Positions 4,038 to 55,945 of a stretch of DNA of 64,000 bases are shown here, in pieces (within the stretch, counting starts at the first letter, position 1; each line of letters begins with the position of its first letter). This DNA is from Halomonas sp. (lineage in GTDB: Bacteria; Pseudomonadota; Gammaproteobacteria; Pseudomonadales; Halomonadaceae), in contig NZ_DRFS01000006.1 of the NCBI RefSeq assembly GCF_011050415.1, positions 181,539 through 245,538 of the forward strand, written 5' to 3'. Position numbers and translations under genes: made by a program. Under the pieces are notes generated by a model. The model saw nothing but the letters and a program-made list of their open reading frames with translations, had not been told where the DNA came from and did no database searches.

Positions 4038-4077
4038 TTTTCGCGTCTCTTCTGACTTGACCACAGCACTAAATCCC

Positions 4078-4121
4078 TGGGGACGACCCCACGAGGTTGA
4101 TTCTTCTGCGGGACGACCCGC
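4078..4121 (+). promoter_or_regulatory. Guanidine-II (mini-ykkC) riboswitch candidate
   Basis: Two small hairpins carry identical ACGA tetraloops. P1 is TGGGG-ACGA-CCCCA (4078-4091) and P2 is GCGGG-ACGA-CCCGC (4108-4121), with a 16-base linker. Paired stem-loops with ACGR loops and a short linker are the defining consensus of the guanidine-II riboswitch. The element ends 20 bases before the carboxylase ATG at 4142, a position suited to control of translation. A purine patch GCAGGCAG lies between P2 and the ATG. Because it precedes only the carboxylase and distal genes, it would add a second, internal control point to the operon. No covariance search was run. Confidence 0.88.
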
Positions 4122-50110: not shown

Positions 50111-51319
50111 TTAAAAGCAGGTCGCCAAGTGCTCTTTAACGTTTAATTGATCGTCGACAAGCAGCAGCTGGCGCCATTTATCAAACGTCAGGCAAGGGTG
50201 CGAGGCGCCAAAAGCAACGATATCACCCACTTCAATACCCTGGGCCTCTTCTGGAAGTCGCACGAAAGTGTGCTGATCCATGATTTTAGTCACTTCCCAA
50301 CCAGTGACTGACAAAGGTTGCGAAATCTCACCGCCCTCCCGGTAGCGGCGCAGGGGGATAGGCAGCTGGTCGTAGCCAATATCGCGCTTACCCAGCGCCA
50401 CAATGGCAAGCCCAGGCTCAGGCAGTGACTGCACCTGGGCAAACACCTCTAGCGCAGGCTCAAGCCCCTGGTTCAAATCAGGTCGGCGCGCCATGACTGC
50501 GCTCTGCGCTTCACGATACAGGCCATGGTCGTGAACCACGTAGCAGCCAGGGCGAAGCACCGGGGTAAATCGCCCCTGCAGCGGCGCCCCACGGAAAGCT
50601 TCCGCGATCACGTCATACCAAGCTGAGCCGGAGGCTGTCACGATGGGGTTGGGCTCAGAGAAACGCTGAGCGGTCTCAAGCTCCACGGCAACATCCACTA
50701 AATATTGTGCATACGCACGAATACCTGATTCAGGATTATCGCCGTGAACCACCCCTTCATAGCCTTCAAGCCCCGCTAATGAAAGTGCAGGCTGTTCAGC
50801 AATCGCCTCCGCTAGCGAAACAATCTCCTGCTGATTACGACAGCCACAGCGGCCACCCTCTACGCCGACCTCAATAAGCACCGATAGCCTCAAGCCCCTT
50901 TCAGCAAAGAAGCGCCCCAGCTGCCGCACGTTCTCCTGGCTATCCACCACACAGTAAAACGTAGCGCCCTGCTCAATCAGACTGGCGATGATGGCCATAT
51001 TGGCGTTGCCGACCAGTTGGTTGGCCATGAGCAACCGGGTAACGCCATGGGCGAAGGCCGCACGACACTGCGGGGCAGTCGCTAAGGTGATTCCCCACGC
51101 CCCCGCCTGAAGCTGACGGTGGAAAAGCGCCGGGGTCATGGTGGTTTTGCCATGAGGTGCCAGACGGGCGCCATGAGCTTCAGCGAAGCGCTGCATCCAC
51201 TCTACGTTATGGGTGAGCGGGTCTTCATACACGACCGCCGCAGGCAGGCTGACACCCGACAGTACATTGGGCACCAGTTCGACACTCCCCTTATCCACCG
51301 TTAACGACGTCGTTTGCAT
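50111..51319 (-). CDS. DSD1-type PLP enzyme (D-serine dehydratase/D-threonine aldolase-like)
   Basis: This 402-residue fold-type III PLP enzyme has the cofactor lysine in APHGKTTMTP and the zinc ligands His and Cys in GASHPCLTFDKW. That pattern is typical of eukaryote-like D-serine dehydratase and D-threonine aldolase. It would act on D-serine or D-threonine released by the deacylase of the divergent operon; a D-serine dehydratase would form 2-aminoacrylate, the substrate of the RidA encoded nearby. Databases often call this 'amino acid deaminase'. It is divergent from the RpiR gene with an operator-like repeat in between. Confidence 0.8.
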   Translation of the reverse strand: MQTTSLTVDKGSVELVPNVLSGVSLPAAVVYEDPLTHNVEWMQRFAEAHGARLAPHGKTTMTPALFHRQLQAGAWGITLATAPQCRAAFAHGVTRLLMANQLVGNANMAIIASLIEQGATFYCVVDSQENVRQLGRFFAERGLRLSVLIEVGVEGGRCGCRNQQEIVSLAEAIAEQPALSLAGLEGYEGVVHGDNPESGIRAYAQYLVDVAVELETAQRFSEPNPIVTASGSAWYDVIAEAFRGAPLQGRFTPVLRPGCYVVHDHGLYREAQSAVMARRPDLNQGLEPALEVFAQVQSLPEPGLAIVALGKRDIGYDQLPIPLRRYREGGEISQPLSVTGWEVTKIMDQHTFVRLPEEAQGIEVGDIVAFGASHPCLTFDKWRQLLLVDDQLNVKEHLATCF

Positions 51320-51441: not shown

Positions 51442-52305
51442 GTGAGCCAAGAAATAGACATTTTGTCACGCATTACCACTGATTTTGCCGCGCTGCGCGA
51501 CGCAGAAAAGAAAGTTGCGGAGCTGATATTCGCTGATATTGAGTTTGTTACCGAAGCCAGCATTGGTGATATTGCCCAGCGCGCCGGGGTGAGCGACGCC
51601 AGCGTCACCCGATTTGCCCGCGCTATCGGCTGCACTAACGTACGCGACTTAAAAACACGCTTAACCCGTGCCTTGGCCGCTGGCCGTCGTTTTATTCAAG
51701 AGGCAACGCCAGAAGACAGCTCAAGCGTGGTGTATGACATTGCCACCCAAACCCTGGCACTTAACCGTGACTTGCTCGCCCAGGCCGACGTAGCAGGCGC
51801 GGTTGAACAGTTGGATCAAGCCCGCCAGATACTAGTGTTTGGTGCTGGCGGCGGTTCTAGCATGCTAAGCCAAGAATTACAGTTTCGTTTGGTACGCCTT
51901 GGTTATGCGATCAGTGCTTACCCGCAAGCACTGCTACCCCGCATGGTGGCATCAACTCTTGACCCCGAAGATGTCGTGGTTGTGCTCTCTGCCACCGGCT
52001 ACACCCCTGAGATGGTGGAGTCTGCACAAATTGCCAGACAGTACGGCGCCAAGGTGATCGCCATCACCGCGATGAATTCTCCATTGGCCGCAACATCCGA
52101 CATCGTGCTGCCGGTGACCTCCCGGGAGACCGACTTTATTTTCCATCCTTCCGCCTCCCGCTACGCCATGCTCGCCGTTATCGATGTGCTGGCACTTGAA
52201 CTTGCCATGCGCCATCGCGAGCGTTCGCGTACCAAATTGCGCCGACTCAAGCTGAGCCTCGATGACCATCGCGGTGGCGACAACCGCCAGCCGCTAGGAG
52301 ATTAA
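51442..52305 (+). CDS. RpiR-family transcriptional regulator
   Basis: This 287-residue regulator has an N-terminal HTH_6 domain (SIGDIAQRAGVSDASVTRFA) and a C-terminal SIS domain that usually binds phosphosugars (VFGAGGGSSMLSQELQ, VLSATGYTPEMVE). It begins with GTG, supported by AGGAG. It lies first in an operon with a D-aminoacylase gene one base downstream. In this context it would sense a D-amino-acid-related metabolite or a sugar phosphate of the amino-sugar type. The effector is unknown. Confidence 0.88.
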   Translation: MSQEIDILSRITTDFAALRDAEKKVAELIFADIEFVTEASIGDIAQRAGVSDASVTRFARAIGCTNVRDLKTRLTRALAAGRRFIQEATPEDSSSVVYDIATQTLALNRDLLAQADVAGAVEQLDQARQILVFGAGGGSSMLSQELQFRLVRLGYAISAYPQALLPRMVASTLDPEDVVVVLSATGYTPEMVESAQIARQYGAKVIAITAMNSPLAATSDIVLPVTSRETDFIFHPSASRYAMLAVIDVLALELAMRHRERSRTKLRRLKLSLDDHRGGDNRQPLGD

Positions 52306-52306
52306 G

Positions 52307-53791
52307 ATGGTTTACGACCTGTTAATTCGTAACGCCAATGTGCTGGATGGCTCAGGCGCTGCTCATTTCCGTGCCGATGTGGCTATTCAAGGCGAGCGTA
52401 TCTGCGCTATCGGCACCATGCCCTATGCCACCGCAACAACAATCATCGACGCCGAAGAGCGCTATTTAGCCCCAGGCTTTATCGATGTTCACACCCACGA
52501 CGATACCAATGTGATTCGTGCCCCCGAGATGCTGCCAAAGCTGACCCAAGGGGTAACCACCGTCGTCGTGGGCAACTGCGGCATCAGCGCAAGTCCGGTC
52601 ACACTCACAAGCGAAGTACCCGACCCAATGAACCTATTGGGTAACGTAGAAGACTTCCGCTACCCAAGCTTCGCCGCCTACGCCAACGCGGTAGACGCCG
52701 CCCAACCAAGTATTAATGTCGCCGCCTTAGTAGGGCATACCAGTCTGCGCAGCCAGGTAATGGATAGCTTTGCCCGCCCCGCTTCCGCAGAAGAAGTCGC
52801 CAAAATGGAAGCCCTGTTACGTCAAGCGCTAGAGGAAGGTGCGCTGGGGCTGAGTTCAGGGCTTGCCTACCGTAATGCGATAAGTGCACCGACTACCGAA
52901 ATGGCCCCTCTGGTGGCGGCCGTTGGGGAGTCAGGCGGGGTCTATACCACCCACCTGCGTGATGAGTTTGCTGGCCTGCTGGAGGCCATGGACGAAGCCT
53001 TTACCACCGCTCGGGATGGGCAAGTACCATTAGTGATCTCGCATCTTAAGTGTGCAGGCGCAGGTAATTGGGGCGGCGCGGGCAAGGCGCTGAGTAAATT
53101 AGAAGCCGCCGCTCAGCATCAACATGCCCACTGCGACTGCTACCCCTACACCGCAGGCTCCTCCACCCTCGACTTAGGACAGGTAACGGACGAGATTGAG
53201 ATAACGATTACCTGGTCGACCCCTCACCCAGAGCAGGCGCGTCGCCCACTAAAAGAGATCGCCGCCGAGTGGAATGTGCCACTGCTAGACGCCGCCCGGA
53301 AGCTACAGCCAGCGGGGGCGGTTTACCACAATATGAGCGAAGCGGATATGCAGCAGGTATTAGCGCATCCGCTCTCCATGGTGGGCTCCGATGGCTTGCC
53401 GAATGATCCGCACCCACATCCGCGCCTGTGGGGAGCATTCCCACGTGTGCTGGCTCACTACAGCCGCGACTTAAAGCTAATGCCACTGGCCGAAGCGGTG
53501 CGCAAGATGACCAGCCTCTCGGCGGCCAATTTTGGCCTAACCGATCGCGGTGAGATCCGTATTGGCGCCTATGCAGACCTCACCCTGTTTGATCTCGCGG
53601 TGCTGGAAGATACCGCCAATTACGAGACCCCCATCGCGGCCGCTAAAGGCATCGATCTGGTGGTGGTGAACGGCAAGATCGCCTATCACCAGGGTGCTAT
53701 TAGCGACCAGCGCGCTGGCCGAATGCTACGCAGAACAGAACGTATTTCTCATACCACTTCTTTTACATCCAACAAGGAGCAAACCCCATGA
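52307..53791 (+). CDS. N-acyl-D-amino-acid deacylase
   Basis: This 494-residue amidohydrolase frees D-amino acids from N-acyl derivatives. The metal site is PGFIDVHTHDDTNV. The bridging-Cys region is VVVGNCGISASPV and the C-terminal GSDGLPNDPHPHPRLWG holds the catalytic Asp. These marks fit the D-aminoacylase family rather than dihydropyrimidinases. Its ATG follows AGGAG, one base after the RpiR stop. The overlap with ridA by ATGA couples the two. Confidence 0.9.
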   Translation: MVYDLLIRNANVLDGSGAAHFRADVAIQGERICAIGTMPYATATTIIDAEERYLAPGFIDVHTHDDTNVIRAPEMLPKLTQGVTTVVVGNCGISASPVTLTSEVPDPMNLLGNVEDFRYPSFAAYANAVDAAQPSINVAALVGHTSLRSQVMDSFARPASAEEVAKMEALLRQALEEGALGLSSGLAYRNAISAPTTEMAPLVAAVGESGGVYTTHLRDEFAGLLEAMDEAFTTARDGQVPLVISHLKCAGAGNWGGAGKALSKLEAAAQHQHAHCDCYPYTAGSSTLDLGQVTDEIEITITWSTPHPEQARRPLKEIAAEWNVPLLDAARKLQPAGAVYHNMSEADMQQVLAHPLSMVGSDGLPNDPHPHPRLWGAFPRVLAHYSRDLKLMPLAEAVRKMTSLSAANFGLTDRGEIRIGAYADLTLFDLAVLEDTANYETPIAAAKGIDLVVVNGKIAYHQGAISDQRAGRMLRRTERISHTTSFTSNKEQTP

Positions 53792-54180
53792 GTATTACTC
53801 GATACGGCACCGAAGGCGGTGTGGGAACCGGTGGCCAAAAACTGCCCTTTGCCCGCGCCGTTGAAGCCGGTGGCTGGCTTTACGTCTCTGGCCAAACGCC
53901 TATGACCAATGGCGAAGTGGTTGAGGGCGGCATTGTTGAGCAGACCCGCCTCGCCTTCGACAACTGCCTGGCCATTATGCAAGAAGCCGGTTACGGCGTT
54001 GAGGACGTTGTGCATGTCACCACGGTGCTGACCGACGCGCGCTACTTCACCTCGTTTAACAAGGTGTTCAAGGAGATCTTTGGCGACAACCCACCGGCGC
54101 GTATCTGTAGCGTTCAAGACCTGGTGGTGGATTGCAAAGTAGAAGTTGATGTGAAGTGTTACCGCGCCGATCGCGCTTAA
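53788..54180 (+). CDS. RidA-family enamine/imine deaminase
   Basis: This 130-residue RidA (YjgF/UK114) protein has the catalytic Arg in PPARICSVQDLVVD and the family VEVDVKCY end. RidA removes 2-aminoacrylate by hydrolysis to pyruvate and ammonia. Its place next to a D-serine dehydratase-like gene makes direct sense, because such enzymes release this reactive enamine. The ATG overlaps the deacylase stop (ATGA) and AAGGAG lies upstream. The SSS gene follows after 156 bases of structured DNA. Confidence 0.9.
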   Translation: MSITRYGTEGGVGTGGQKLPFARAVEAGGWLYVSGQTPMTNGEVVEGGIVEQTRLAFDNCLAIMQEAGYGVEDVVHVTTVLTDARYFTSFNKVFKEIFGDNPPARICSVQDLVVDCKVEVDVKCYRADRA

Positions 54181-54199: not shown

Positions 54200-54304
54200 A
54201 AAAAAAGCGCCGCGCCCCGGCAAGGGCGCAGCGCCAGATTACCGCGCGATTAGGATAAAAAAGCCTCGCGGCAATCGCTTCCATTGCCTATTTCCAGCCG
54301 CGGC
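54200..54304 (-). terminator. Tandem terminator-like hairpins on the minus strand, without a minus-strand gene
   Basis: Read on the minus strand, two GC-rich stems end in T-tracts. One is GCGC-GCGCCC/GGGCGC-GCGC (54207-54234, loop CGGCAA on +) followed by seven Ts (54200-54206). The other is formed by GCCGCGGC (54297-54304) and GCCGCGAGGC (54263-54272), followed by six Ts (54257-54262). No minus-strand gene runs into them in the 1.7 kb upstream. They may shield ridA from antisense transcripts or end a small RNA. Confidence 0.55.
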
Positions 54305-54336
54305 AACGGCCGGATAAACAACGACAAGAGGTTAAC

Positions 54337-55836
54337 ATGAACAGTCAAATATTCCTCGTCACCTTCGTGCTCTATATTGTCGCAATGATTGCCTTTGGAT
54401 GGTGGGTTTCAAGGCATAAGCGCGGCAACGGAGATGACTTTCTACTCGGCGGGCGAAGCGTTCCACTCTTTCTCACCGTGGGAACCACCGTGGCGACGAT
54501 GGTAGGCACCGGCTCCAGCATGGGTGCCGTCGGATTTGGTTATGCGAATGGTTGGGCAGGCGCTTTGTACGGTATTGGTGGCGCGGTTGGGGTGCTGTTA
54601 CTTGCCGTCTGCTTCTCCTCAGTACGTAAGCTGCGCTTTATGACCATGAGTGAAGAACTCGCCTACTACGTCGGCGCGAACCGGCTGGTGCGCAATGTGG
54701 TCGCGCTGCTGATCTATATCGCCTGCATCGGCTGGCTGGGCGCCCATATTCTCGGTGGTGGCCTCTACCTTTCCTGGATGGCGGGTATTGATCTAACCAC
54801 TGCGCGCATTTTGGTTGCGCTAGGCTTTGGTATTTACTGTGTCGTAGGCGGTTACTTCGCGGTTATCTGGACCGACACCATTCAAGCGGTGGTGCTGTTC
54901 GCAGGCTTTATTTTGATGGCCATTTTGGCACTAGTGGAAGTTGGCGGCTTCTCAGGCCTGACCGCAGGTATGGATGCGGGCGCCACCAGCTTTCTAGGTA
55001 TCGGTCAAATTGGTGCACTGCCAGCGCTATCATTAGCTGCTGTTATTGCCATTGGCGTATTGGCAACACCCTCTTTTCGCCAACGCATTTACTCGGGCGA
55101 ATCGGTTGGTTCGGTGCGCCGTTCGTTCTTAATCACTGGCGTTCTTTATCTAGGCTTCTCAATTATTCCTGCCATTATCGGTATGGCCACCCACGCGCTT
55201 AATCCCGGGCTTGAAAACAGCAACTACGCCTTCCCTTTTCTAGCCACTGAAATCATGCCGCTAGGGTTGGGTCTGCTACTGTTGGTAGCGGGCCTCTCCG
55301 CGACGATGTCCAGCGCAAGCTCCGATGCGATTGCCGGGGTTTCTACCCTGATTCGCGACTTGTATGTACTGGCAACGGGACGCACGCCGTCAGCGCGCAA
55401 CGTAGTACGCTTCTCGCGTATCGCCCTAGTGGCAACGATCGGTCTGGCGCTGCTGTTCGCACTGGCCTCAGACAATGTCATCACCTACATCACCCGCATG
55501 ATCTCAACGATTCTATCAGGGCTGTTTGTGAGTGCCATGCTCGGTCGCTTCTGGCCCCGCTACAACTGGCAGGGCGCTATCGCAACGCTTATTTGTGCGT
55601 CAGCCACCTCCTTAACGATTATCGCCAATAGCGATTGGACAGCCTTCTGGGGCAACCCAAGCATCCCCGCGGTACTGGTAGCACTGCTAGCGGGTGTGGT
55701 GGTGAGTCTAGTAACGCCCGCTTCCCGGGTTACCTCTGAGCAGGCGCTAGCGATTCTTGACCAAGAGCGCCAGCGTATGGAGCAAGTGCCTGAACCGACA
55801 CTGACCAGTGCTGAAGCGCCCTCTGCGCCTCGCTAA
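54337..55836 (+). CDS. Sodium:solute symporter (SSS family)
   Basis: This 499-residue protein has about 13 hydrophobic helices and belongs to the SSS family. The marks are GGRSVPLFLTVGTTVATMVG near helix 2 and WTDTIQAVVL around helix 5. It fits the sodium-driven uptake systems for amino acids, sugars or nucleosides. Its place in the D-amino-acid operon suggests import of N-acyl-D-amino acids or D-amino acids. AGAGG lies five bases before the ATG. A strong terminator follows. Confidence 0.87.
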   Translation: MNSQIFLVTFVLYIVAMIAFGWWVSRHKRGNGDDFLLGGRSVPLFLTVGTTVATMVGTGSSMGAVGFGYANGWAGALYGIGGAVGVLLLAVCFSSVRKLRFMTMSEELAYYVGANRLVRNVVALLIYIACIGWLGAHILGGGLYLSWMAGIDLTTARILVALGFGIYCVVGGYFAVIWTDTIQAVVLFAGFILMAILALVEVGGFSGLTAGMDAGATSFLGIGQIGALPALSLAAVIAIGVLATPSFRQRIYSGESVGSVRRSFLITGVLYLGFSIIPAIIGMATHALNPGLENSNYAFPFLATEIMPLGLGLLLLVAGLSATMSSASSDAIAGVSTLIRDLYVLATGRTPSARNVVRFSRIALVATIGLALLFALASDNVITYITRMISTILSGLFVSAMLGRFWPRYNWQGAIATLICASATSLTIIANSDWTAFWGNPSIPAVLVALLAGVVVSLVTPASRVTSEQALAILDQERQRMEQVPEPTLTSAEAPSAPR

Positions 55837-55855: not shown

Positions 55856-55890
55856 AAAAAAGCCCCGCTGATTTAATCAGCGGGGCTTTT
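55856..55890. terminator. Bidirectional rho-independent terminator
   Basis: AGCCCCGCTGA pairs with TCAGCGGGGCT around TTTAA. An A-tract (55856-55861) lies on the left and a T-tract (55887-55890) on the right. It ends the symporter transcript on the + strand and the uxuA operon on the minus strand. Confidence 0.92.
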
Positions 55891-55893
55891 CTA

Positions 55894-55945
55894 TTTTGAA
55901 GAGCTTTTTTGAAGAGCAGGTTTTGAAGAGCCGTTTTTAAAGAGC
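55894..55945. repeat. Four-copy tandem repeat TTTTGAAGAGC at the uxuA 3' end
   Basis: TTTTGAAGAGC occurs at 55894, 55907 and 55921, and as TTTTAAAGAGC at 55935, with periods of 13, 14 and 14 bases. The last copy contains the uxuA stop codon and its last codons (GCTCTTTAA on the minus strand). The others fill the space up to the terminator. It looks like duplication by slippage of the gene end. Confidence 0.7.

Follow-up and report, generated by a model that had tools for sequence, protein, structure and literature searches.

The antisense RNAs that control copy number in IncI/IncB plasmids and in plasmid R1 have stable hairpins with fixed hexaloops, complementary strands and, nearby, sequence complementary to the loop. 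On the chromosome of Escherichia coli, the antisense RNA GadY is about 105 nt long and is not known to have two hairpins sharing an identical hexaloop. GadY lies opposite the gadX-gadW junction, where RNase III is recruited to split the mRNA (PMC3634460); it is itself bound by Hfq and dependent on sigma-S. ArrA of Bacillus subtilis is antisense to the 5′ leader of dnaA and represses this gene (PMC12112137). AsflhD (PMC9600491) and aMEF (PMC8749433) are also antisense RNAs encoded on chromosomes, and each modulates the gene that it overlaps.

Here, we examined a 64,000-nt stretch of Halomonas sp. DNA (the window), from a host judged by its closest named relatives to be a Vreelandella (Halomonadaceae). 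The 156-bp gap between a ridA gene and a sodium:solute symporter gene houses a conserved element, which probably encodes in cis an antisense RNA that would be expressed over the intercistronic leader and would tune the symporter separately from ridA. GadY would be the nearest known way of working, by analogy: it too is short, similar in size and complementary to an intercistronic region of an operon. The two differ in that no sequence relation was found (no Rfam match here) and neither sequence nor structure matched. Like ArrA, the candidate overlaps the untranslated region just upstream of the presumed target and is conserved in some relatives; phylum, gene and promoter differ, and ArrA was shown by experiment whereas the Halomonadaceae RNA is proposed from sequence. 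AsflhD and aMEF are likewise chromosomal and antisense to the overlapped gene, with other genes as targets.

The features of the locus are collected in Table 1. Judged by protein families, the rpiR, amidohydrolase, ridA and symporter genes look like an operon for D-amino-acid use. The element consists of hairpin P1, a variable P2, a linker and hairpin P3, followed by ACAAnnAYAAGAGG and the symporter start codon, and P1 and P3 have in common a near-invariant hexaloop (CGGCAA; UUGCCG on the minus strand).

Table 1. Genes, structural parts and predicted signals at the ridA/symporter locus (window positions).
Feature	Position	Strand	Remark
D-serine dehydratase/hydroxyaspartate aldolase-like gene	50111-51319	-	opposite orientation to operon
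RpiR/HexR-like regulator gene	51442-52305	+	5′ of amidohydrolase gene
Amidohydrolase gene, D-aminoacylase type	52307-53791	+	5′ of ridA
RidA-family protein gene	53788-54180	+	upstream gene, same operon as symporter
Putative antisense RNA, about 115 nt	54200-54314	-	from promoter position, P3 and P1 terminator
T7 tract after P1	54200-54206	-	intrinsic terminator, predicted RNA 3′ end; terminator scan, relatives
P1, 11-bp hairpin, hexaloop UUGCCG (plus CGGCAA, 54218-54223)	54207-54234	-	strong covariation; 3′-terminal hairpin of RNA
P2, GATTACCGCG/CGCGGCAATC helix (54237-54246 with 54267-54276)	54237-54276	-	folding; conservation by eye
Conserved linker, plus CCATTGCCTATT	54281-54292		YUGYY in nearly all relatives
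P3, hairpin with same hexaloop (54301-54306)	54293-54314	ambiguous	covaries; also in symporter leader
Candidate -10 position	54321-54326	-	TGTCGT; weak in this genome
Shine-Dalgarno AAGAGG of symporter	54326-54331	+	overlaps minus-strand promoter site
Sodium:solute symporter (SSF) gene	54337-55836	+	presumed target of antisense RNA
Candidate -35 position, TTGACT	54343-54348	-	within symporter codons 3-4 (AGT CAA)

An initial annotation had read two minus-strand stems with T-tracts as tandem terminators; we find only one terminator. The first stem (P1, with its T7) stands: a terminator scan gave it 13 pairs, 10 of them G-C, and it has the GC-rich stem and following T-run of an intrinsic terminator, although the T-run is weak in some relatives. 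The 9 nt after P1 hold 6-8 T in Vreelandella, 3-7 in most others and 2-4 in Billgrantia, Litchfieldella and Franzmannia, where the tract is poor. Of the 10 terminator-like sites in a 10-kb scan, P1 and one other had the longest stems (13 and 15 pairs); as 9.7 such sites are expected by chance, P1 stands out by strength alone. The second stem was rejected as a terminator since no adequate stem precedes its T6: in this genome no stem of at least 5 bp (at most one mismatch, loop under 30 nt) ends within 2 nt before 54262-54257, and the best one in relatives reaches -3 to -9 kcal/mol, compared with -22 to -25 for P1. This T6 instead sits in the apical loop of P2, a helix kept in Vreelandella and made of other sequence in the Billgrantia and Salinicola groups (read by eye). 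Over the whole gap, the minus strand is more stable than its shuffles (z = -3.7; plus strand, z = -1.0). The same annotation was right that no minus-strand gene reads into the stems, the nearest of annotated size ending at 55937, past the symporter terminator hairpin. This strong hairpin (55858-55890), with an A-run before and a T-run after it, lies between the symporter and a convergent uxuA-type gene and is probably a bidirectional terminator.

We took the gap from all relatives having the ridA/symporter pair; 70 distinct sequences contain the element. Across P1 and P3, 98.2% of cells are paired and 9 of 17 pairs have double changes; doubly changed cells number 63, whereas shuffles averaged 16.7, none of 500 reached that figure, and slid versions of the structure gave 8 at most. 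RNAalifold, run on the minus strand, recovered both helices, P1 without a broken pair. The two strands can be distinguished, since what pairs as G.U on one of them reads as an A.C mismatch on its complement. At P1 pairs 3-10, the non-Watson-Crick cells, read on the plus strand, are all A.C or C.A (G.U on the minus) and never G.U, the sole exception being row L093, which a bulge shifts out of register. When changes were mapped on a phylogeny of ridA and symporter DNA, P1 showed 40 from one Watson-Crick pair to another, and departures from Watson-Crick pairing numbered 25 to A.C and 1 to G.U (plus strand), whereas in these two genes the four-fold degenerate sites favour the G.U-type direction 686 to 421 (binomial P about 5e-10). 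Running 25 to 1 against the neutral direction, these changes show that P1 is maintained as minus-strand RNA, that is, on the strand opposite the ridA-symporter mRNA, as expected of an antisense RNA. P2 leans the same way in Vreelandella (5 to 3) and is probably also kept as minus-strand RNA; P3 has no strand preference by parsimony (4 to 1 toward plus over 8 pairs, few events). Folding favours the minus strand for the whole element in 69 of 70 sequences and for P1 in 62 of 70. We are highly confident that minus-strand RNA structure is under selection at this locus.

A promoter-like signal lies where such an RNA would begin. The best minus-strand sigma-70 site has a constant position in 66 of the 71 sequences, 13 nt ahead of the inner stem of P3; it reads xTGACT, 16 bp, then TATAAT, TATACT, TATCGT or TGTCGT, with +1 at the first P3 pair (54314). 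With TATAAT or TATACT, the site is very good in Salinicola, Chromohalobacter and Halomonas s.s.; this genome has a mediocre version, and many Vreelandella have TATCGT. Of 58 element-bearing rows, 50 have AGT as symporter codon 3, against an AGT share of 8% of Ser codons in these genes, and the same serine is AGC in all four element-lacking Pseudomonas. A general AT bias near start codons would not account for this choice, because codon 2 is AAC in 56 of 58. The promoter site also overlaps the Shine-Dalgarno sequence and start codon, themselves conserved for other reasons. On the plus strand at 54317-54331, an A-rich AACAACGACAAGAGG adjoins the Shine-Dalgarno sequence and appears as AACAACAACAAGAGG in some relatives, like an Hfq/Crc catabolite-repression site; a Crc/Hfq site of this kind (AACAACGATAAGAGG in relatives) could be a partial cause of the conservation of the promoter region. 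Within the Vreelandella/Billgrantia part of the tree, the second -10 position changed at least 9 times, so that the promoter there would be weak, different or elsewhere, and the Vreelandella 5′ end is uncertain; an alternative candidate (TTGAAA-16-AATCAT) lies 64 bp further into the symporter gene. P3 is predicted to form the 5′ end of the minus-strand RNA, and a discrete transcript of about 115 nt starting there is more likely than not.

The element occurs in about 75 Halomonadaceae genomes, one copy each, in Vreelandella, Billgrantia, Litchfieldella, Franzmannia, Halomonas, Modicisalibacter, Salinicola, Chromohalobacter, Aidingimonas and others; it is absent from Kushneria and Pseudomonas, which have both ridA and the symporter. 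A covariance-model search of the genus returned one strong match in 24 of 82 genomes, exactly those with the ridA/symporter region, and none in the genus genomes that lack the operon. In the family, about 76 of 275 genomes gave one strong match each. All strong matches whose surroundings were fetched lie directly upstream of the symporter, an adjacency partly built in for loci found through RidA and not for the whole-genome model searches; the weak family matches do not precede the symporter, except for a partly masked one (L185). Apparent copies at other sites of the genome, or in other orders, turned out to be weak generic terminators of 24-37 bits, lacking P3 and the operon, and were rejected. 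We also discarded a small peptide encoded in the minus-strand RNA, as T-run length shifts the frame between relatives and no open reading frame is conserved (by eye).

Some loci have been rearranged. In Litchfieldella anticariensis, an insertion of about 146 bp downstream of P3, ahead of the Shine-Dalgarno sequence, parts the hairpins from the promoter site, and several Salinicola have GC-rich repeat-like stretches upstream of P1 that resemble it. Longer, mutually similar, mobile-looking inserts lie between ridA and P1 in L023/L066 and L082, which are Vreelandella/Halomonas olivaria and Salinicola rhizosphaerae. The symporter gene of L044 and L066 is spread over two or three frames, with tblastn pieces split near residue 171, and ridA of L066 is incomplete; the broken genes may be either pseudogenes or assembly errors.

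The reading that we favour is a short minus-strand RNA running from the symporter leader to the first terminator, one of two possibilities raised by the initial annotation and the best supported by the wobbles, the covariation, the fixed promoter-like site and the single locus. Transcription would start next to the symporter Shine-Dalgarno sequence and end in the T-tract at 54200, and in the folded RNA P3 would be the 5′ hairpin, P2 the helix in the middle and P1 the hairpin of the terminator. Over its full length the RNA would be complementary to the part of the operon mRNA that lies between ridA and the symporter, directly ahead of the ribosome-binding site of the latter, and pairing would probably begin at the exposed UUGCCG loops. 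Since the RNA ends about 12 nt short of the Shine-Dalgarno sequence, it would not mask that sequence directly; the outcome may be RNase III cleavage after pairing, collision of polymerases, or both, which would set symporter expression apart from that of rpiR, the amidohydrolase gene and ridA. The near-invariance of the loop in both hairpins goes beyond what complementarity requires and may reflect rapid pairing between loops, or a protein or second RNA that binds there. That the element keeps to the symporter and is missing wherever the operon is missing speaks for action in cis rather than in trans, and we consider regulation of the symporter in cis somewhat better than an even proposition, whichever sign the effect may take.

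The invariant loop is also the main point in favour of a small RNA that acts in trans and is antisense to the leader by chance, its twin UUGCCG loops acting on other mRNAs. Two hairpins with the same near-invariant loop would suit such an RNA; an antisense RNA can match its own target with any loop sequence, and the invariance asks for more, for example seeds or a bound protein. Nevertheless, among 82 genomes of the genus and 275 of the family the element was never found away from the symporter, and it is missing from all genus genomes without the operon, which a global regulator should sometimes outlive; we therefore regard action in trans as unlikely. The loop likewise bears on the other possibility raised at the outset, a simple barrier in which the P1 terminator would keep stray antisense transcripts from running on into ridA and the amidohydrolase gene. 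The strong stem with T7 in this genus and the lack of a minus-strand gene upstream of P1 would fit a barrier, for which an invariant hexaloop and a second hairpin with the same loop are superfluous, and P1 is retained in lineages without a T-tract. A pure barrier is accordingly the less likely of the two possibilities, and we give it only a slim chance.

Other explanations place the function on the plus strand or in the DNA. A structured symporter leader, binding a protein or sensing a ligand through two CGGCAA hairpins and a loop-linker pseudoknot, would be well positioned just upstream of the Shine-Dalgarno sequence, and P3 wobbles slightly more on the plus than on the minus strand. Linker UUGCC (54284-54288, plus strand) is complementary to GGCAA of both loops (54219-54223 and 54302-54306), and C to U changes in the YUGYY of relatives preserve this predicted pairing as G.U on the plus strand only, a complementarity hinting at a plus-strand pseudoknot. 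Against such a leader, both P1 and the whole element are more stable on the minus strand and the P1 changes run 25 to 1 against the plus strand, which makes it improbable. A twin-hexaloop leader of the ANTAR type was rejected, as the element loop lacks the A1/G4 pattern of that motif and the hairpins lie far apart. It is also doubtful, but conceivable, that both strands of the 115-bp element act as RNA, with twin hairpins and complementary invariant hexaloops (CGGCAA/UUGCCG). This arrangement would recall the plasmid copy-control RNAs, which share the stable fixed-hexaloop hairpins, the complementary strands and the loop-complementary sequence nearby; the element differs in being chromosomal and placed before a transporter, in its loop (UUGCCG rather than UUGGCG), and in that kissing and pseudoknot are hypothetical here. 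If true, competition between loop-loop kissing and a loop-linker pseudoknot would control a chromosomal transporter as plasmids control copy number. GC-rich palindromes within an intergenic gap could, finally, be dyads that work as DNA alone, either as palindromic sites for a protein or as a REP-like repeat. Yet the arms covary and the loop is fixed, the reverse of a protein-binding dyad, and the wobble asymmetry is strand-specific; with one copy per genome a REP-like repeat was rejected, and a DNA-level role as a whole is very improbable.

Returning to the cis-encoded antisense RNA, the candidate would be an RNA family new to Rfam 15, within an antisense mechanism class that is already known. 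No Rfam 15 family matched the element at gathering score, a permissive search giving weak matches far below threshold, and none of the known Rfam riboswitch or leader families scored above gathering there; elsewhere in the window, a Guanidine-II riboswitch (mini-ykkC; 4075-4121, plus strand) scored above it. Literature searches on Halomonas antisense or small RNAs gave no paper that describes this locus.

For want of conservation, most antisense RNAs proposed in bacteria have been dismissed as noise. Here, covariation and strand-specific wobbles across about 75 genomes show selection on minus-strand RNA structure ahead of expression data, and such wobble asymmetry offers a cheap, general means of assigning a conserved hairpin to the strand whose RNA is functional. 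For the Halomonadaceae, the element provides a clear test of how an operon uncouples its transporter from its enzymes.
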